Shown: piece after piece, positions 19,202 to 40,633 of the stretch
How positions within the stretch are numbered: the first letter of the stretch is position 1
How the letters are laid out: each line of letters begins with the position of its first letter
Assembly (NCBI GenBank): GCA_944325085.1
Contig: CALUYT010000037.1
Coordinates: 1 to 59,633, forward strand
From: Candidatus Gastranaerophilales bacterium
Lineage (GTDB): Bacteria > Cyanobacteriota > Vampirovibrionia > Gastranaerophilales > Gastranaerophilaceae
Direction: 5' to 3'
DNA: 59,633 bases
Notes under the pieces: model-generated
The model's database searches: none
Told to the model about the DNA's origin: nothing
What the model saw: only the letters and a program-made list of their open reading frames with translations
Translations under genes and position numbers: made by a program

Positions 19202-20002
19202 ATGGAAGATATCGTTGAAAAGTTAAAGGATTTGGGGTTTAATTCCTATGAAGCCAAGGTTTACATTGCATTACTGAAAAAGTATCCTGCAACAGGATAC
19301 GAGGTATCACAAATTGCAGATATACCTCAGGCTAGAGCTTATGACTCTTTGAAATCTTTAGAGCTTGCTAAGGTTGTTTTTTCTTCGTCTGATAAGCCTC
19401 AGAAATATACGCCGGTTTCCCCGAAGGAGTTAACACAAAGGTTTAAAAGAAAGATAAATTCAACGATTGATTTTTTAGAAAAACGCTTACCTAGTGTTAG
19501 GGAAGATTATAATGAACCTGTACATACTATTTTTGGATATTCAAATTCAATTGAAAAATTAAAAGAAGTTATAAATAATTCAAGCAAATCAATATATATT
19601 GAGTTGTGGGCAAGTGATTTTAAGCATTTGGAAACAGCTTTGAATGAAGCTTATGATAGAGGGGTAGATATAAAATTTGTCGGATATGATAATTTGAAGC
19701 CGATTTTTGGTTTAGCTTATGAGCATGCCGGAGCGAAGGAAATTGAAAGAAATATAGGTGGAAGATTAGTATATCTGTTAGCTGATAATAGCGAAGCTGT
19801 TTTTGGCCGTATTGAACAACAAGTTGTATGGACTAAGAATGCCGATATAGCTTTTTTACTTAAAGAGTTTATAGTGCATGATATGTATTTGTTAGATGTT
19901 AACAAGCATTTCCCTGAACAGTTAAGGTATTTCTATGGCGCAGGGTTTAAAAAGTTAAAAGATAAGATTTTGGATAAGTATTCAAGTTATAATATTCATT
20001 AA
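19202..20002 (+). CDS. TrmB-family transcriptional regulator
   Basis: Probable sugar-responsive DNA-binding regulator. 266 residues: an N-terminal winged helix-turn-helix (about 1-75) with the family pattern 'LGFNSYEAKVYIALLKK' and 'ARAYDSLKSLE', then a coiled-coil (75-100) and a C-terminal TrmB/PLD-like sensor domain (110-235, 'SIYIELWASDF'). TrmB proteins classically sense maltose or trehalose; here the ligand is unknown. It is divergent from the 709-residue gene across a region with inverted repeats and followed 89 bp later by tdk. It has no ribosome site. Confidence 0.88.
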   Translation: MEDIVEKLKDLGFNSYEAKVYIALLKKYPATGYEVSQIADIPQARAYDSLKSLELAKVVFSSSDKPQKYTPVSPKELTQRFKRKINSTIDFLEKRLPSVREDYNEPVHTIFGYSNSIEKLKEVINNSSKSIYIELWASDFKHLETALNEAYDRGVDIKFVGYDNLKPIFGLAYEHAGAKEIERNIGGRLVYLLADNSEAVFGRIEQQVVWTKNADIAFLLKEFIVHDMYLLDVNKHFPEQLRYFYGAGFKKLKDKILDKYSSYNIH

Positions 20003-22489: not shown

Positions 22490-24208
22490 ATGTTGAAAAA
22501 ATTTTTATACGTATTATGGGCTTTAATATTTTTTGTTTTGGTTTTATTGGGGTTGAAAAATGGTAGCTTTATTACGTTTATAAACTCTATGGAGGCAAGG
22601 ACTTTTGATATTAGACAAAAGGTTTTGGTTAATTCAGGGGTAAGAAAACATAATAAAGATATTGTTATTGTGGCTATTGATGATGGTAGTTATGAATATA
22701 TTTTAGATCATTATGGTGAATGGCCATTAAGAAGAGATTTGTATGCAAAAATGGTGGATTTTATTGAAGTTCAAAACCCTAAAAGTATTGCTTTTGATTT
22801 GATGTTTGTAAAATCATTAAAAGCTGATAAAAATTCAGATAAGGCTTTGGTAGATGTATTTAAAAAATATAATAATATTTTTACTGCAATGAATCTTGAT
22901 GATCAGCCTCAGGATTTGCGAGTTCCTCCAATTTTGCCGGATAAATTAGCTATAGATGTTAAAGATCCTGAAAATCTCCATGTAATGGAGTATTCTAATT
23001 GCAGGGTAATATTGCAAGAAATATTAGATGTTACATCAAATATTGGAATGATTAATGTTTCACGTTCAGATGATGGGGTATTGAGAAAAATGCCTGTTTA
23101 TTTAAAATATCGTGATAAATTTTATCCTCAATTAGGTTATTTAGTAGGTTCTCATTATTTAGGCGAAAGAAAAGATTTAGTAGTTGATGATGATAAGTCC
23201 GGAGAGGGTGTTATACTTAATTGGTATGGTCCTGCCGGTACATTTGAAAATATTCCTATGTATAAAGTTTTAAAAGCTGCAGAAGGTCAGGAAAATTTAA
23301 ATTATGATTTTAGTGGAAAAGTTGTTTATTTTGGAGCAACAGCTGCAAGTCTTTTTGATATAAAAACGGTTCCTGTTGATAAGGTTTATCCAGGGGTAGA
23401 GGTTCAGGCTACTTATGTTAACAATATTATTGATGGTAGCTATATAATAAAATGTCCTGTATGGGTTAATTTGTTAAGTGCTATTGTATTAATGATAATC
23501 TCAGGAATTTGTGTTTTTGGTTTATCTTCAATAATTACTGCTGTTGGACTTGTGTTAACTATAGATTGTGCGTATGTAATATTAACATATTATTTAATGA
23601 GTGCGTTTAATTTGTGGTTGGATATTGTAATGCCTCTTGTTGCTGGTGTTGGTATTTTTATTATTGCTGTTGTTGTTAAGTATTTAATTAAATCAAGAGA
23701 TTTTGATCATCAGTATAAATTGGCAACAACTGATGGTTTGACAGAATTATATAATCATAGGTATTTTCAAGAGCAGATGCAACAGATTACATCTCATGCA
23801 AAACGTTATGATGTACCGTTATCTTTAATTATTATAGATATTGACTTTTTCAAAAGATTTAACGATACATATGGTCATCAATCTGGTGACGCTGTGTTAA
23901 GACAAGTTGCGTTTGAATTAAAGAAAAATGTTAGAGCGTCCGATATAGTATGTAGATACGGCGGAGAAGAAATGAGTATTATTCTTCCAAATACTAAATA
24001 TGAGGAAGCCGTAGCTATTGCAAACAAACTGTGTACAATAATATCTAACAAAAAATGTAAATTAAGTAACAACAGAGAAAGCAATGTTACGATAAGTCTG
24101 GGAGTTGCTTCTTTTGGTAATGATGGTACTGAACCATCTCAAATTATAGAAGCTGCTGACAAAAGATTGTACAATGCAAAAGAAAATGGCAGGAACAGAG
24201 TTAACTAA
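22490..24208 (+). CDS. CHASE2-domain diguanylate cyclase
   Basis: Makes cyclic di-GMP from GTP in response to a signal outside the membrane. 572 residues: TM1 at 7-24; an extracytoplasmic CHASE2 sensor at about 30-310 ('DIVIVAIDD', 'WPLRR', 'DDGVLRK', 'PGVEVQA'); three membrane helices at about 325-400; GGDEF domain at 410-572. The active site 'GGEEM' is at 491-495 and the inhibitory I-site RxxD (RASD, 482-485) lies five residues before it, so both activity and product feedback should be intact. It is followed 7 bp later by a STAND ATPase-TPR gene. Signal unknown. Confidence 0.94.
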   Translation: MLKKFLYVLWALIFFVLVLLGLKNGSFITFINSMEARTFDIRQKVLVNSGVRKHNKDIVIVAIDDGSYEYILDHYGEWPLRRDLYAKMVDFIEVQNPKSIAFDLMFVKSLKADKNSDKALVDVFKKYNNIFTAMNLDDQPQDLRVPPILPDKLAIDVKDPENLHVMEYSNCRVILQEILDVTSNIGMINVSRSDDGVLRKMPVYLKYRDKFYPQLGYLVGSHYLGERKDLVVDDDKSGEGVILNWYGPAGTFENIPMYKVLKAAEGQENLNYDFSGKVVYFGATAASLFDIKTVPVDKVYPGVEVQATYVNNIIDGSYIIKCPVWVNLLSAIVLMIISGICVFGLSSIITAVGLVLTIDCAYVILTYYLMSAFNLWLDIVMPLVAGVGIFIIAVVVKYLIKSRDFDHQYKLATTDGLTELYNHRYFQEQMQQITSHAKRYDVPLSLIIIDIDFFKRFNDTYGHQSGDAVLRQVAFELKKNVRASDIVCRYGGEEMSIILPNTKYEEAVAIANKLCTIISNKKCKLSNNRESNVTISLGVASFGNDGTEPSQIIEAADKRLYNAKENGRNRVN

Positions 24209-24215
24209 ATAAAAT

Positions 24216-26642
24216 ATGAGGACAGATTTTTTAGAAAAAGCTATTAATTTAAAAGACATTCCAAAAGAATGTCCTGTTGATATTTGCTTATTGGAAAATA
24301 ATGAAAAACAAATTGGGCAAATTTGTGATTTTTTGCAATCTGATAATAATCTGCTTTTAGTTAATGGTTTTAAAGGTAGCGGTAAAACGTTAGTTGTGGA
24401 TTATTCTCTTACTTACATTAATCCAGGAGCTTTAATTTTACATTATACCTGCTTAGAAACAACTATTCTTGATGATATGTTGTTGAGATTTTTTGATATA
24501 TTTAGAAATTATACGCTGTTAGGTAAAATTGTTCCTCCGAAAATAAAAGTGGAAAATTTTACACAAAAAATAAGTTCTTATTTTAATACAATAGATAGAC
24601 CTATTCTTATAGTATTAGATTCATTTGATGACATTGTGAAAAATAATAAGCCTGAAATTTTGAATTTTGTTAAACATTTGATGAAATTTCCAAATATAAA
24701 GGTTATTATTGTTTCTAAAGTTTTTAATTATGAAGATTTTGTTGATGTTGAATATCAAAAGGTTACAATGTTGCCTTTTTCTCAAAAAATATTTGAAAAA
24801 TATTTAAAAGAGCACGATATTAAACAAATTGGTGTTTTGTCAAATGAATTATATAAAATATCGAAAGGTTATTATAATTACCTTACATTGACTATAAATA
24901 TAATGAATTTGAGACAGTTGTCGTTAGTTAATTTTTTGGAATTATTTTCAAAAAGTTATATGGCGTTTCCGGAGTTTATTTTAAGGGAAGCTTTATCTTT
25001 AGTTGATCCTGTTAGCGCTCATTTATTTAGATTGTTGACAGTAATGCGTATTCCTATTCATGTAAATTTGTTAAAATCTTTGCATTTGTATGATGAGGCA
25101 AGAGTTTACTTTTTCGTTTCAAATTCAATATTGTCTGTTGATGGTGAATGTTTATATTTAAAAGATAATTTCAGAAGTTTATTAGAAAATCAAATTCCTG
25201 AAAATGTAATGATAAAATTACATACAGCTTGTATTGATTTATATAATACACAACTTCCTTTAAAACCGTTAGAAAGAGATTTGAAATTATCAAGGCAAAC
25301 TATGAGAAATGAAATAGAATATCATAGTATGTTTATTCCTAAAAAACCTGTAATTAATCCACAGGTTATTCAACCTTACGCGATACAAAATCCAATTGCT
25401 CAAAATCAAGTTAAATCAGCAGATAAAAATAATGTATTACCTGATAGCGAAAAGCAAAAAACTGAAGAAGTTTCAAAAGATGACATTATTAATAATATAA
25501 GTTTCATCATTGAAGATGAGGCTGTTTTAGATGGAATTGCCGATTCAATAAAAGATTTTATCAGTTCAACGACTCAAGATAACAAATTAGAACAAGAAAC
25601 ATCTAATATGACTTTGCAACAGATTTTGAATGCAGCAAGACAAGAAGAACAAAAATACAATTATAAAAGAGTTGTTATGTTGTATCAAAATGCTTTAACT
25701 AAAAAGAATGATGAAGATTTTTATACGTTTTTACCTTCAATATATGTAAGCTTGGCAAGAGCTTATCAAAAACTTTCGGATTGGTACGATGCTTTAGAAT
25801 ATTATACACAAGCTCAAGATTTTTATTATAATGCTTCAAATAATATAAAAGTCTATGAGGTTAAGTTAGATATTGCTAATATTTATTATCTAATGTACAA
25901 ACATGATAATGCGAAATTTATTTTGTCAGAACTTGAAAAAGCACCAGATATTCCAAATGAATTGCTAATAAGAGTTAAGATGGCAAGTGCAAAATTGAGT
26001 GAAGATGTAGATTTAGAATATAAGTATTATAAAGAAGCCATTCCTTTGGTTGAAAGTAATACAGATAAAATTATCTTGGCAGAACTTTATTATAAATATG
26101 CTGCAGTATGTGATGAAAAAGATGAATTAAATGAAGCTGCAAAATATTATAAAAAATGCGTAGATGTTGATTATAACCCAAAACACAATAATTATTTATC
26201 AAGAGCATTATCTAATTTGGCTGAATTATATGATGAAGTCGGCAGTACTAAATTAGCTGTAAAATATTATCTTGAAAGCATAAAAATTGATACTATTGTG
26301 AAAAATTATAATGGGTTATATTGCAGTACAATTCATTTGGCTGAAATTTTTGCATCAAAAGATGATAATAAAGCCATAGAATATATGAAAATGGCTGTTG
26401 AGTATGCTAAATTAACAAAAGAACCATTTTATATTGCAGGCGCAAATTTAGAATTTGGTGATTTTTATTTTGTAAGGCGTGATATGGAAAAAGCTTACAA
26501 GTATTTTATTGAAGCTTATAATGTTGCAAAAATTTCATTTACAAAAGATAATTTGGATAAAATAACAGAACGAATAGATGATGTTAAAAAGCGCGTAGTT
26601 GAACAAGATTTTAAGGCTTTTCAGGAAAAATATGGAAAATAA
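24216..26642 (+). CDS. STAND-type P-loop ATPase with TPR repeats
   Basis: 808 residues. The P-loop 'GFKGSGKT' (51-58) and Walker B 'ILIVLDSFDD' (130-139) are intact, typical of AAA/STAND signalling ATPases. A winged-helix-like region follows (to about 350), then a low-complexity linker (about 375-485), then a run of TPR helices from about 500 to 790 ('SLARAYQKLSDWYDALEYY', 'ALSNLAELYDEVGSTKLAV'). No membrane segment. It lies 7 bp after the diguanylate cyclase without its own ribosome site and overlaps rsmG by 11 bp, so it is inside an operon. Likely a signal-dependent scaffold or regulator; partner unknown. A related plan is seen in the 1195-residue protein at 35166. Confidence 0.82.
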   Translation: MRTDFLEKAINLKDIPKECPVDICLLENNEKQIGQICDFLQSDNNLLLVNGFKGSGKTLVVDYSLTYINPGALILHYTCLETTILDDMLLRFFDIFRNYTLLGKIVPPKIKVENFTQKISSYFNTIDRPILIVLDSFDDIVKNNKPEILNFVKHLMKFPNIKVIIVSKVFNYEDFVDVEYQKVTMLPFSQKIFEKYLKEHDIKQIGVLSNELYKISKGYYNYLTLTINIMNLRQLSLVNFLELFSKSYMAFPEFILREALSLVDPVSAHLFRLLTVMRIPIHVNLLKSLHLYDEARVYFFVSNSILSVDGECLYLKDNFRSLLENQIPENVMIKLHTACIDLYNTQLPLKPLERDLKLSRQTMRNEIEYHSMFIPKKPVINPQVIQPYAIQNPIAQNQVKSADKNNVLPDSEKQKTEEVSKDDIINNISFIIEDEAVLDGIADSIKDFISSTTQDNKLEQETSNMTLQQILNAARQEEQKYNYKRVVMLYQNALTKKNDEDFYTFLPSIYVSLARAYQKLSDWYDALEYYTQAQDFYYNASNNIKVYEVKLDIANIYYLMYKHDNAKFILSELEKAPDIPNELLIRVKMASAKLSEDVDLEYKYYKEAIPLVESNTDKIILAELYYKYAAVCDEKDELNEAAKYYKKCVDVDYNPKHNNYLSRALSNLAELYDEVGSTKLAVKYYLESIKIDTIVKNYNGLYCSTIHLAEIFASKDDNKAIEYMKMAVEYAKLTKEPFYIAGANLEFGDFYFVRRDMEKAYKYFIEAYNVAKISFTKDNLDKITERIDDVKKRVVEQDFKAFQEKYGK

Positions 26643-35016: not shown

Positions 35017-35150
35017 TTTGTTTTCCTAAAATATTTGTGAGCTGTTTTTTTAAAGTCTGTAAATATAAATTTTTGCTAGTGTTTTTTATTATAAATAGAG
35101 CTTTTTAACAGAATATCATCTTTTTGAATTAGTTTAAAAGCCTTATGCTA

Positions 35151-35159
35151 TGGTATAAT
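35151..35159 (+). promoter_or_regulatory. Extended -10 promoter, candidate leaderless
   Basis: TGGTATAAT with perfect TATAAT at 35154-35159, 6 bases before the ATG at 35166. No clear -35 box, as often for extended -10 promoters, and no ribosome site. Confidence 0.55.
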
Positions 35160-35165
35160 TTAGTT

Positions 35166-38100
35166 ATGGAATGTCCTAAATGTGGAGCAGAAATAAGTAA
35201 AAGTGCAATGGTGTGCCCGAATTGTAAGAAGGTACTCAAAATTGTCTGCCCTGTTTGTAAAACTGTAAATACTAAAAATGTATGTAAAAGATGCGGTGAA
35301 ATCCTTGTTACAAAATGTTCTAAATGTGGCAAGATAAATCTTTTAAAAAATGCTAATTGTATAAAATGTGGATATTCTAACGAAATTAGTGCAGTTTTGG
35401 GTGAATCTAATACTGATAGTTTTGCGATTTTAAGGATAGATTTTCCAAATAGTGATGTTGTTAAAGCTAAATTAGGTTCTAATCAGTTATATCAAAAGTT
35501 TAGAACTAATTTAGATGCAATGATTGTTTCTTATGTGAATACAATTAATGTAAGAAGACAAATTATAAATAATGATATTTATATATTAAGGTTTAACAAA
35601 GATTATACATTTTCTGCCTCAGCAAATTCAGCCATTTTAGCGACAATCGAGCTTGTTAATTTGATAACAAAATTAAATGTTAAACTTCTAAAGAAAAAAG
35701 GAGTTGGGTTAAAGTGTAATTTTACAATAATGAGGCGTGATGCTGATAAAAACCCTTATGATATTGATACAAGATTCCATGCAAATATGGTTTACCAAAG
35801 TTCTAGTAAAGATATGAGAGCTTTGGATTCATTCCAGGTTATAACTGATGAAAATTTTTATGATTTGTATAAAGAAAATTATAAACTTGAATCATTAAAT
35901 TCAACAATGGTTGAAGGGGTTATGAAGCGCTTTTATGAAATTGATTTGAAAGAATTTGTAAATATTGGTGAATTCTTGAAAAATGAAGCGCAAAAAGAAC
36001 AAGAAGATTCTGATGAAATTGAAGTTCCTAATTTTGTACAAGCTGCACTGATTGATCAGGCTAAGATTACTCAAGATGCTTTAATTGAGGAAAATAATCT
36101 GCTTGATGATGATATGTATGATATTAGTATGATAAATTTTGAAGAAATAAATTGTTCTTTTATCAAAACAGAAAGCATTAATGTCTTGGATTGTGTTGTT
36201 CAAATGCTTCAACAGCAGCCTATTGGTATTTTAGCGCTAAAGGCTTCTGCAATGTATCAGCCTTATACGCTGAAATTGTTATCAGCAGTAGATGAATTGG
36301 GTATATATGATAATGTTATACCTATAACTTGTCATGATGATATGAAGTACACTCCTTATGCTTTCTTTAGAGATTTAATTTCTTCAATTTTTGATTATAC
36401 TATTTCTCAAAAAAAGTTTGCAAGTAATGATTTTTCTATGTTTTCTACCGTTGATAAAGAGGGGTTGATTAAGGATTTAATCTGGCTAAATCAGAGAAAA
36501 ATGGCAAATATGGAAGATACAAGAGAAAACTATTGTCAGTTATTTTTCTCTCTATTGCAATCTATTCCAAATTCTTTAATCTATATTGAAAACTTTGATA
36601 AGATGGATGAAAGTTCAAAGTTTGTTTTAGAACAATTGTTTGACCATTTTGATGAGTTAAATATAAGTTATCTTGTTTCTTATGATAAAAAGTATTCGCT
36701 ACATAAAAACTCACACTTTTTATTATCAAGACCTTATTATACCGAAGTCGCGTTGACTCCTACGCCATTTGAAACCATTATTATGGCAGATCAAGATTTT
36801 TATCGCGATATAATGACTGATTTTTATTTCCAAAGAATTGCAAAATATGCTTGTGGCAGTACATTGTTTTTAGATTTTGCTATTCAATATTTGTTAGAGT
36901 CAGGGATTTATGAATATACCGAAACTTCAATAGCAATGGTAAATCCTAAAACTGTTATTATCCCATCAAGTTTGAGTAAGTTGTTAAAACGTAGAGTTAA
37001 TTTGTTAAAAGATGATGAAGAAACTATGCGATTTTTGACAATGCTTGTGTTGTTGGGTACAAGAATTGATGAAAAAACTATTAATTCTTTAGGATTTAAA
37101 AATTGGCAAAAACTTGGCGAGAAATTAGCCGGAATGGGTTATATTTATTCGTATAATAATTGTGTATATTTTTCAAATTACAGTATCTTAAGAGAAGCTT
37201 TGTTAGATGTAATAAGACCAGAAGATTTGCAGATGGTTATACAAGATTTGTTTAATTTAGTTTATGTTGAAGATATGGCAAATTCTGTTAAACCATTTTT
37301 GTATGATGTTTCCTCTCAAGGTGAAAAGGTTATTTTTGAATGGGAAAAATTAGCAAATATAAATCTTTCTATGGGTGATTTTTCTTCTTACTTGAATTGT
37401 TCTTCCGAAATTTTAAAAACCTTGGATAAATATTCTCAAATATGGTCTGCTGATGATTTGATGAAATATAAGTTATCTTTATATGAAAATGTTTCTAACA
37501 ATATGTATGAGTATGACCCTGAAAAAACAAAAGATTTGGCTGAAAATACATTATTAACTTTGAAAAAAGCAAATAACAATGATAATTATGTTGCATTTTG
37601 TACAAAAATGATACAGGGTGCAATGGCTCATGGTGATTATATGTACGCCCTAAATTTAACTCATAGCGTATTATCTTCATTTGACAAAGCATCATTGGAT
37701 CCGGCTTCTGAATCGTTTAATTTATATTTTCTTTTGATGTCAGTTATATATGTGAAATTGTTATTTAATATCGGCGCATATGATGATTGTTTGGATATTG
37801 GATATAATATTTTGAATGTTTTAGATAATGAAAAGCTTAATTCTATAAGATATACTGTCGTTTCAAAAGAAGAATTTAAGTTTTTAGTCAGTGAATGTGT
37901 TGGATATATTGCATTGGTAGATGTTTTATCTTTGAAAGAAGATGTTAGTGAGTTTTTAGATATTTCTAATAAACTTTTGAATTTTATTCCGCCTAGTTAT
38001 TCAATATTTGTTCAGTTGCAAAACCAAATAAAAGGTAAGCCAGTTACATTAAATCCTTCTATGGCAGGAAATGATGCTTTTTCGCCGATATTATATCATT

Positions 38101-38753
38101 TAATGAATGCGTTTATTGCATTTAAGGATAATCCTACATCTTTTGCTCAGGAAGTTTATAAAGCAAAACTTATAGCTAAAGAAACTCAGATGGTCCAATT
38201 TGAAATTTTTGCAGATTTAATGATTGGTTATGCTTATGTGAATTTAAATGCATTCCAAAAAGCGTCTTCAATGATATATAAGATTGTTAAAACTGCAAAA
38301 GATAAAGGTATGCACGCTGTTGAACATTTAGCTTGGTATGTAATGAGTATTCTAAATATCAAAGAAGGAAAATTTGATATAGCATATGGTGTGTTAAATA
38401 ATTCTAATATCCAGATGGAAAAAAGAGGGGGTATTAGTGAGTATTTAACAATGTTAAATAAAATTAATATGTACAAAGTCCTAATGTGTATGAATAAACA
38501 AGATCAAGCTCAGATTTGTATGAATCAAGCATCTTATATTGTACAAAAATATGGCTTGAGTTTTAATTTGAATATTGACATTAAAAAAATTCTGTTAGAA
38601 AATTCTGTTAACAATAAAGCTGGTGCAAATGTTAATCAAAATGTTAGACCAGCACAAGAAGAGAAAGCTCAGGGACAGAATATAAACGCAAATCACGGTT
38701 TTGAAGAATCCGATAGTGATGTTGTTAATCCTTCAGACTTTTTCTCCGATTAA
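35166..38753 (+). CDS. Zinc-ribbon / cyclase-like / ATPase-like / TPR protein
   Basis: 1195 residues, no membrane segments. 1-70: several Cys pairs (CPKCG, CPNC, CPVC, CKRCG, CSKCG, CIKCG), making about three zinc ribbons. About 85-260: a region that follows the class III nucleotide cyclase pattern ('FAILRIDF' ... 'FYEIDL') but lacks most metal-binding Asp. About 335-560: a STAND/AAA-like block with a Walker B-like 'LIYIENFDKMD' but no GxGKT P-loop. About 740-1140: helical TPR-like repeats. Tail: Asn/Gln-rich. This order is the plan of large cyclase-ATPase-TPR sensors with both catalytic sites apparently lost. The start at 35166 is preferred over an in-frame ATG 21 bases upstream, which lies before the -10 box. 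Function unknown; probably a scaffold or sensor. Confidence 0.8.
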   Translation: MECPKCGAEISKSAMVCPNCKKVLKIVCPVCKTVNTKNVCKRCGEILVTKCSKCGKINLLKNANCIKCGYSNEISAVLGESNTDSFAILRIDFPNSDVVKAKLGSNQLYQKFRTNLDAMIVSYVNTINVRRQIINNDIYILRFNKDYTFSASANSAILATIELVNLITKLNVKLLKKKGVGLKCNFTIMRRDADKNPYDIDTRFHANMVYQSSSKDMRALDSFQVITDENFYDLYKENYKLESLNSTMVEGVMKRFYEIDLKEFVNIGEFLKNEAQKEQEDSDEIEVPNFVQAALIDQAKITQDALIEENNLLDDDMYDISMINFEEINCSFIKTESINVLDCVVQMLQQQPIGILALKASAMYQPYTLKLLSAVDELGIYDNVIPITCHDDMKYTPYAFFRDLISSIFDYTISQKKFASNDFSMFSTVDKEGLIKDLIWLNQRKMANMEDTRENYCQLFFSLLQSIPNSLIYIENFDKMDESSKFVLEQLFDHFDELNISYLVSYDKKYSLHKNSHFLLSRPYYTEVALTPTPFETIIMADQDFYRDIMTDFYFQRIAKYACGSTLFLDFAIQYLLESGIYEYTETSIAMVNPKTVIIPSSLSKLLKRRVNLLKDDEETMRFLTMLVLLGTRIDEKTINSLGFKNWQKLGEKLAGMGYIYSYNNCVYFSNYSILREALLDVIRPEDLQMVIQDLFNLVYVEDMANSVKPFLYDVSSQGEKVIFEWEKLANINLSMGDFSSYLNCSSEILKTLDKYSQIWSADDLMKYKLSLYENVSNNMYEYDPEKTKDLAENTLLTLKKANNNDNYVAFCTKMIQGAMAHGDYMYALNLTHSVLSSFDKASLDPASESFNLYFLLMSVIYVKLLFNIGAYDDCLDIGYNILNVLDNEKLNSIRYTVVSKEEFKFLVSECVGYIALVDVLSLKEDVSEFLDISNKLLNFIPPSYSIFVQLQNQIKGKPVTLNPSMAGNDAFSPILYHLMNAFIAFKDNPTSFAQEVYKAKLIAKETQMVQFEIFADLMIGYAYVNLNAFQKASSMIYKIVKTAKDKGMHAVEHLAWYVMSILNIKEGKFDIAYGVLNNSNIQMEKRGGISEYLTMLNKINMYKVLMCMNKQDQAQICMNQASYIVQKYGLSFNLNIDIKKILLENSVNNKAGANVNQNVRPAQEEKAQGQNINANHGFEESDSDVVNPSDFFSD

Positions 38754-38786
38754 ATTTTGAATTGAATGTTCAGAAAGAGAGGGAAA

Positions 38787-40232
38787 ATGAAAATATTATT
38801 TGCATCTGCCGAAGTAGCACCTTTTTCCAAGGCAGGGGGCTTAGCTGATGTTATCGGAAGTTTGCCTAAAGAACTTGAAAAAGATGCTGAAATTGCTATA
38901 TTTACTCCTCTTCATGGGTGTATTGATAAGGATAAGTATAACATTAAAGAATTAGAAAATTCCCAAATGTGGATTACTTTCGGTAATCAACCTCAAAAAT
39001 TTAATCTTTATATGACAAAACTTCCGGGAACAAATATTAATGTATTTTTTGTAAGAAATGATTGGTATTTTTCTTGTTTTAAAGAAGTTTATCCAAAATA
39101 TTTAGATCCAAGATATGAGCACGAAAGATATATTTCATTTTCACTGGCTGTTATGGAATATGCAAAGGCTCTTAATTTTAGAGCTGATGTTATTCATACT
39201 AATGATTGGCATACAGCAATGATTCCTTTGTATTTGCATTCAAATTATAAGTTTGATGAGTTTTGGAAAGATACAAAATGTGTTTTTGAAATCCATAATT
39301 TAGCTTATCAAGGTATTTGGTTTGAAGATGTTTTGGATTTTGCAAATATGCGCAAAGATATTGTTTATAATCAATGGGGTTGTGAACATTATAATAGAGT
39401 AAATTGGATGAAGGGTGCAATAAATTATTCTGATAGGGTTGTTGCAGTTTCTCCAACTTACGCAAGAGAAATTTTGGGTTCTGAGTATGGCGAAAATATG
39501 GATTATACGCTAAGAGGAATACAATATAAACTAAAAGGTATATTAAATGGGATTGATTACACTGTGTTTAATCCTAAAACAGATAACTCTTTAGTTAAAA
39601 ATTATGATGTGAAATCTTTGCAAAATAAAGAAGCTAACAAAAAAGCTGTTTGCGAATATTTTGGTTTGGAATATAATCCTGAAAGACCTTTGATTGCTCT
39701 AATTTCTCGATTAGTAAATCAAAAAGGTATTGATTTAATTCGTGATATGCAGTATGAATTACAAAATCTTAATGCCGATTTTGTGTTTATGGGGAGTGGC
39801 GATAAGGATTATGAAAATCTATTTATCTGGCTTTCAAATAATACGAAAAATATACGTACATATGTAGGTTATAAGGCTGATTTAGCTAATTTAGTTTACG
39901 CAGGTAGTGACTTTTTCTTAATGCCTTCCAAATTTGAACCTTGTGGTTTGAGTCAATTAATTGCAATGCATTATGGTTCATTGCCAATTGTAAGAGCAAC
40001 CGGAGGATTGGAAGATACAGTCAAAGGTTATCCTTTAGACAATTCAACAGGTTTTAAATTCTGGGCATATAATGGTTGGGATATGTTAAATGCTATTAAA
40101 TGCGCATTGTATGTATATACTGATAAGTATGTGTTTAATGCTATGAGAAAATCAGCTATGGAATCAGATTTTTCTTGGAAACAAAGTGCTAAGCAGTATT
40201 TGAATATGTATCATGAAATATGTGGTAAATAA
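38787..40232 (+). CDS. glgA: Glycogen synthase GlgA (ADP-glucose type)
   Basis: Extends alpha-1,4-glucan from nucleotide-glucose; GT5 family. 481 residues from the ATG at 38787, preceded by GAGAGGG (an ATG 21 bases upstream gives an odd N-terminus). Landmarks: 'FSKAGGLADVIGSLP' near 16 (KTGGL variant with Ala), 'HTNDWHTAM' near 138, 'EIHNLAYQG', 'GILNGIDY', and the C-terminal E-x7-E acceptor motif 'SKFEPCGLSQLIAMHYG' near 380. Together with the GH57 branching enzyme at 57.6 kb it points to glycogen storage. glgC is not in the window. Confidence 0.95.
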   Translation: MKILFASAEVAPFSKAGGLADVIGSLPKELEKDAEIAIFTPLHGCIDKDKYNIKELENSQMWITFGNQPQKFNLYMTKLPGTNINVFFVRNDWYFSCFKEVYPKYLDPRYEHERYISFSLAVMEYAKALNFRADVIHTNDWHTAMIPLYLHSNYKFDEFWKDTKCVFEIHNLAYQGIWFEDVLDFANMRKDIVYNQWGCEHYNRVNWMKGAINYSDRVVAVSPTYAREILGSEYGENMDYTLRGIQYKLKGILNGIDYTVFNPKTDNSLVKNYDVKSLQNKEANKKAVCEYFGLEYNPERPLIALISRLVNQKGIDLIRDMQYELQNLNADFVFMGSGDKDYENLFIWLSNNTKNIRTYVGYKADLANLVYAGSDFFLMPSKFEPCGLSQLIAMHYGSLPIVRATGGLEDTVKGYPLDNSTGFKFWAYNGWDMLNAIKCALYVYTDKYVFNAMRKSAMESDFSWKQSAKQYLNMYHEICGK

Positions 40233-40393: not shown

Positions 40394-40633
40394 ATGGATC
40401 AAATAATTAAAGTAGCCTGGGATTTGAATGAAAATACAGATAACAGATACAAATTGGTTTATGAAATTGCAGAATTAGCAAAAAAAATTGTAGATGAAAA
40501 TCAAGCTAAAAAAGCTCGTGAAGATTTTGGTTTTGAAGAAATGCACGAAACCAGTTATTCAAGAGAAAATCCTGTTGAACACGCTTTGATGGTTAAAGCA
40601 TCAGAAGCTGATGATAACAGATTAGTTGGTTAA
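40394..40633 (+). CDS. rpoZ: RNA polymerase omega subunit-like protein
   Basis: 79 residues. 'NRYKLVYEIAELAKKIVDE' near 17 and 'NPVEHALMVKASE' near 59 match the two conserved helices of RpoZ (NR..LV..A..A and K....A..E), in the right order and spacing for a small omega subunit. GTGAGG is placed before the ATG. Flanked by terminators on both sides, so a single-gene unit. The match is from pattern recognition; an unrelated small helical protein cannot be excluded. Confidence 0.55.
   Translation: MDQIIKVAWDLNENTDNRYKLVYEIAELAKKIVDENQAKKAREDFGFEEMHETSYSRENPVEHALMVKASEADDNRLVG

Follow-up and report, generated by a model that had tools for sequence, protein, structure and literature searches.

A P-loop-less zinc ribbon–pseudo-cyclase–STAND–TPR protein encoded beside glgA in Gastranaerophilales, with a probable non-catalytic role in glycogen synthesis as regulator or scaffold

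The window, i.e., the whole stretch of DNA analysed (59,633 nucleotides; assembly GCA_944325085.1, contig CALUYT010000037.1, Candidatus Gastranaerophilales bacterium), is part of a metagenome-assembled genome of 1.89 Mb. An open frame for a protein of 1195 aa was found on the forward strand at 35166–38753. ATG 35166 (MECPKCG), which is kept in orthologues, was taken as the start; a longer ATG at 35145 is not kept, and the N-terminus MECP[KN]CG is common to the 60 near full-length orthologues collected. The protein is composed, in this order, of three zinc ribbons, a class III cyclase fold, a STAND module (NBD, HD and WHD), a TPR superhelix and a disordered tail (Table 1). Alignment A1 contained 58 genus sequences covering the whole chain, the others being 44–81% identical to the window protein.

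Table 1. Features of the 1195-residue protein gene and of the adjacent glgA (window positions)
Feature	Position	Strand	Basis
Extended -10 element TGGTATAAT, hexamer 35154–35159, 6 bases before ATG 35166; predicted leaderless start	35151..35168	+	Orthologue positions
Three zinc ribbons, residues 1–70, 12 Cys	35166..35375	+	Pfam DZR, Cys invariance
Class III cyclase fold without working active site, residues 71–265	35376..35960	+	VIA-align, profile match
Low-confidence acidic linker, residues 266–330	35961..36155	+	pLDDT <60 over much of 271–320
STAND nucleotide-binding domain fold, residues 331–560	36156..36845	+	Apaf-1, MalT, 6mfv matches
Former P-loop region, residues 355–372	36228..36281	+	Alignment with 18 paralogues
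Retained Walker B-like segment LIYIENFDKMDESS, residues 468–484	36567..36617	+	Alignment columns
STAND helical and winged-helix parts, residues 561–705	36846..37280	+	Whole-module structure match
TPR superhelix, residues ~706–1140	37281..38585	+	AF2 helices; Foldseek and VIA matches to TPR proteins
Acidic tail at the C terminus, variable and disordered, with the stop codon	38586..38753	+	pLDDT 23–40; 19% mean pairwise identity
Shine-Dalgarno-like GAGAGGG of glgA	38777..38783	+	Sequence
glgA, ADP-glucose-type glycogen synthase	38787..40232	+	TIGR02095, E 1.9e-151; adjacency

Searches of Pfam, NCBIfam, PADLOC and PDB sequences with the single protein gave nothing significant beyond the zinc ribbons, and the remaining folds were therefore taken from structure prediction and profiles. 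AlphaFold model: mean pLDDT 83, low in the first 20 residues, at 271–320 and after 1150; with Foldseek the full model matched the STAND-TPR protein 6mfv best (E 2.9e-9). Zinc ribbons: Pfam DZR, E 2.5e-10, over the cut-off; paired CxxC knuckles present; all 12 Cys invariant in the 58 genus orthologues; most conserved module of the chain (75% within the genus). No HTH domain was found in the protein by Pfam at E up to 10. An earlier note on this DNA had given the 1195-residue frame, its coordinates and the domain order correctly; its zinc ribbons at residues 1–70 were borne out by the DZR match and the invariant Cys, and the TPR-like repeats that it placed at 740–1140 were recovered as a superhelix starting at ca. 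706.

Residues 71–265 of the AlphaFold model were superimposed with VIA-align on CyaB (3r5g; Z 17.1, 2.9 Å over 171 residues) and on CyaC (1wc3; Z 16.1, 2.6 Å over 170 residues). In a pairwise hhalign comparison (E 3.7e-6) the cyclase-like region of the family ran collinear with genuine cyclases from the same class; no match of the protein to Pfam Guanylate_cyc was listed at E up to 10. In the genus orthologues the first metal position (D92) is D or E in 57/58, and the second metal Asp is lost, D being present in just 13/58 and a gap in 31/58. The helix for the transition-state Asn/Arg after the IGD motif is missing in the model, where segment 193–222 has no matching helix, and no Arg was observed at the aligned catalytic position in the alignment with true cyclases. 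The cyclase region of relatives with an intact P-loop is degenerate too; cyclase decay is therefore older than P-loop loss. A class-wide search for an active-cyclase ancestor led to the long cyclase-STAND proteins in family f8 (L139–L143); these were rejected as direct ancestors because a protein kinase stands at their beginning and their own cyclase sites seem changed as well.

The STAND module was also predicted alone (residues 322–705; pLDDT 90.8). Structure matches of this model: Apaf-1, Z 17.1 over 302 residues; MalT (8bob), Z 16.2 over 316 residues; 6mfv, Z 14.7 over 292 residues; all three run through the NBD, helical and winged-helix parts, while Orc/Cdc6-type AAA+ proteins gave lower scores (Z 10–13), for the most part over a portion of the module. 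The Walker A P-loop (G/A-x4-GK[S/T]) was found in none of the 58 genus orthologues and in none of 20 orthologues of other genera. The hydrophobic strand of Walker B is kept (LIYIENFD; E475 in 57/58; K479, D481 and S484 in 58/58), and Walker B is conserved in the P-loop-less clade and in the intact group alike. Invariant in the 58 genus members are Y364, P366, Y367, C389, M393, Y395 and P397; within the genus, identity reaches 81% in the segment that follows the P-loop vs a domain mean of 62.8%. In the clade's other genera, the former P-loop is conserved below its own domain (21.7% vs 26.7%), whereas in the intact paralogues the P-loop is conserved above its own domain (40.4% vs 29.4%); the function is therefore gone, and not the motif alone. 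The module may bind nucleotide in some other way. The structure prediction and profile comparison proposed in the earlier note thus found both the cyclase and the STAND fold and no intact active site, and the loss of both enzyme sites suggested there was confirmed by model and alignment, the modules being folded but dead. Of its details, the Walker B without a P-loop was right and the extent of the block (335–560 instead of ca. 331–705) too short; of the metal Asp, most of which it took to be lacking, the second is lost and the first is kept as D/E.

The P-loop is missing in 28/28 sampled members of the clade to which the protein belongs and intact in 18/18 sampled paralogues; the tree is split accordingly into two clades (supports 0.999 and 1.0), the midpoint root leaving the direction of the split unfixed. 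The P-loop-less clade was found in 26/36 sampled genera of one family. The window genome (G000) also encodes a paralogue with an intact P-loop, missed in the earlier note: G000:C13, L107:2750–5761, motif GPKGIGKS; zinc ribbon-STAND-TPR without a cyclase region; matches of this type were seen in nearly every genome of the genus. A gene for a protein with a TonB-like C terminus lies upstream of it. L099 has a near P-loop, GETNTGKL, without S/T, and is a possible intermediate.

Selection on the P-loop-less protein (dN/dS, pairs with computable dS): ca. 0.015–0.06 in the pseudo-cyclase and STAND blocks; for pair L048–L085, the pseudo-cyclase gives 0.019/0.668 and the STAND block 0.009/0.586. The ratio is low in all folded modules of within-genus pairs, and the C-terminal tail is loosely constrained in most of them. 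A decaying gene is excluded; purifying selection on the dead modules is strong, and the full length is kept, as had been supposed. One orthologue (L022/L086) is split into two ORFs by an in-frame stop, possibly an assembly error or a broken copy.

The frame of glgA opens at 38766; its likely start, ATG 38787, lies 33 bases past the stop codon of the upstream gene, and no terminator-like site was found between the two. Within the genus glgA was scored as the next gene in 57/60 loci by script; in L090 and L091 it is adjacent with a small overlap of match coordinates, giving 59/60, and in the one exception, L098, a different gene follows. Upstream, RuvB is kept in 45/57 genus loci; PNP follows glgA in 8/44. 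Across the family the two genes are adjacent on the same strand in 49/68 genomes containing both, corresponding to 18/26 genera, with –36 to +190 bases between match ends; this conserved neighbour had been overlooked in the earlier note. Seven linked loci from other genera were compared: there the P-loop-less protein is 24–37% identical and GlgA 57–78%, and almost no other gene of the window is left. In the remaining 8/26 genera the gene is not beside glgA, and no common neighbour was found among the ten neighbours scanned; it is absent from 19/88 family genomes, most of which keep glgA. The pairing therefore survives deep divergence and is not universal, and GlgA is in general independent of the P-loop-less protein. 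Two other frames of the window were recorded: downstream of glgA, at 40394–40633, a 79-aa ORF without an NCBIfam match that by eye resembles an omega subunit of RNA polymerase, and at 19202–20002 a TrmB-like HTH sugar-sensing regulator (E 4.6e-20, under the equivalog cut-off).

The start of the 1195-residue frame is preceded by a TGnTATAAT box (up to one hexamer mismatch allowed) at exactly –12 in 52/58 and at –15 in 4/58 genus orthologues, the shuffle background being 13%; a Shine-Dalgarno-like site was observed before the start in 1/58. In the window genome TGnTATAAT followed by exactly 6 bases and ATG occurs 23 times vs 5 for the reversed control; the 22 further sites are denoted L166–L188; 22 of the 23 box-linked ATGs open frames of at least 140 codons, among them smpB, uvrC, MTHFR, NAD kinase and LysR. 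The sequence pattern suggests that the gene is expressed leaderless and that a class of leaderless genes exists in these bacteria; no paper on leaderless genes in Melainabacteria was found in the open-access literature.

Since glgA lies directly downstream in many genera and both enzyme sites are dead, the protein probably acts in glycogen synthesis without catalysis of its own, as a regulator or scaffold. The reading preferred is that of a non-catalytic paralogue kept as a scaffold or allosteric regulator of GlgA (probability roughly 0.55); the proposal of the earlier note, a pseudoenzyme scaffold controlling partners, is supported to that extent, a scaffold or regulator role being the best reading. 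The ancestor would have been a zinc ribbon-cyclase-STAND-TPR signalling protein, cyclase catalysis being already lost in the P-loop-bearing relatives; after duplication one copy would have lost the P-loop together with the ADP/ATP switch for STAND opening and oligomerisation, and selection would have retained the entire folded chain as a constitutive scaffold. Partners could be held at either end of the chain, at one by the zinc ribbons together with the cyclase fold, at the other by the TPR superhelix, the dead STAND module serving as a hub. The most likely client would be GlgA, the product of the next gene; the protein would bind GlgA, or glucan or enzymes around GlgA, and so set its activity or location, in a docking comparable to that of MalY on the STAND module of MalT. 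Gene pairing is no proof of binding; a shared transcript with glgA, physical binding of GlgA and the direction of control are what we infer.

Three other explanations were weighed. The protein could be a pseudo-subunit that pairs with the intact G000:C13 paralogue and tunes the assembly that this paralogue drives with ATP, a role played by dead subunits in other ATPase complexes; the shared zinc ribbon-STAND-TPR layout, the intact P-loop of the paralogue, its matches in nearly every genome of the genus and the predicted fold of an oligomerisation type agree with this, but the paralogue gene is unlinked and devoid of the cyclase region, and the glgA pairing is left unexplained, which makes it rather unlikely. 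It is unlikely, too, that the former nucleotide site was repurposed for another ligand (e.g., sugar phosphate or ADP-glucose), the protein being a sensor of glycogen metabolism: the Y-x-P-Y loop and the C389...MKYSP segment, which would form the pocket, hold the seven invariant residues and the highly conserved stretch described above, but the loop is not kept in the other genera of the clade. Very unlikely is a zinc-ribbon regulator of operon RNA or transcription with the rest of the chain as a sensing platform and the glgA link at the level of expression; the strongest conservation does fall on the ribbons, and a weak likeness to archaeal Zn-ribbon RNA-binding proteins was noted (E 0.04–0.4), but this likeness is below significance, zinc ribbons are often protein-binding, and an HTH domain was not found by Pfam.

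Known STAND proteins are closed when ADP is bound and oligomeric when ATP is bound, and they cycle between the two states (PMC4381067, PMC10427625); as the P-loop is missing, such a cycle is unlikely here. On MalT, the STAND module is the docking site of a metabolic enzyme, MalY (PMC10427625). A switchless multi-domain platform together with this precedent favours the scaffold or allosteric regulator of GlgA over the three rivals. The narrower proposal that bacterial glycogen synthase has a dedicated scaffold or allosteric subunit made up of a switchless STAND module and a dead cyclase, a mode of control undescribed in the literature searched, is tentative and stands somewhat short of an even chance; no paper on such a protein, or on TPR regulators of GlgA, was found in the open-access literature.

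The closest proteins of the same order are P-loop-intact ones (L101–L106, L110 and the paralogue L107), which share zinc ribbons, NBD, WHD and TPR with the P-loop-less protein and differ from its clade in keeping G/A-x4-GK[S/T]; the cyclase-containing ones among them gave a full-length profile match of E 2.8e-61, with a similarly degenerate cyclase region. CyaB and CyaC share the fold of residues 71–265 and D/E at the first metal position, but the second metal Asp and the catalytic Asn/Arg helix are lost in the window protein. MalT, the maltose STAND regulator of Escherichia coli, has the same NBD-HD-WHD fold and a helical-repeat sensor, and metabolic enzymes dock on it (PMC10427625). Its switching depends on ADP/ATP and it carries a DNA-binding domain, while the window protein has neither P-loop nor HTH; the C-terminal LuxR-type DNA-binding domain of the MalT family is absent, and the C-terminal end is disordered (Pfam, model). 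In 6mfv STAND is followed by TPR in the same way, but no zinc ribbon or cyclase module stands in front; its nucleotide site is a working one. Mammalian soluble adenylyl cyclase ADCY10 has the general order cyclase-NTPase-TPR, with two cyclase domains, active, and no zinc ribbons.

An ATP/ADP switch is the defining trait of STAND proteins (Apaf-1, NLRs, MalT), and here a whole clade without it keeps the folded machine. The presence of this clade in 26/36 sampled genera indicates that the scaffold is of value by itself, and the clade provides a switch-free comparison, found in nature, for STAND assembly. Should the link to glgA be physical, it would represent a new kind of regulator for glycogen storage in bacteria, here in gut bacteria whose regulation has received little study.

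The ATPase-TPR protein at 24.2 kb, earlier named as a possible partner or relative, was rejected as both: profile comparison gave a probability of 0.4%, and the protein is present in 87/88 family genomes, including all 19 without the P-loop-less protein, so that its presence is uninformative; it is encoded mostly on other contigs or far from the P-loop-less gene. In the window its gene, of STAND/AAA-TPR type, is located at 24216–26642, directly after that of a CHASE2-GGDEF diguanylate cyclase (22490–24208).
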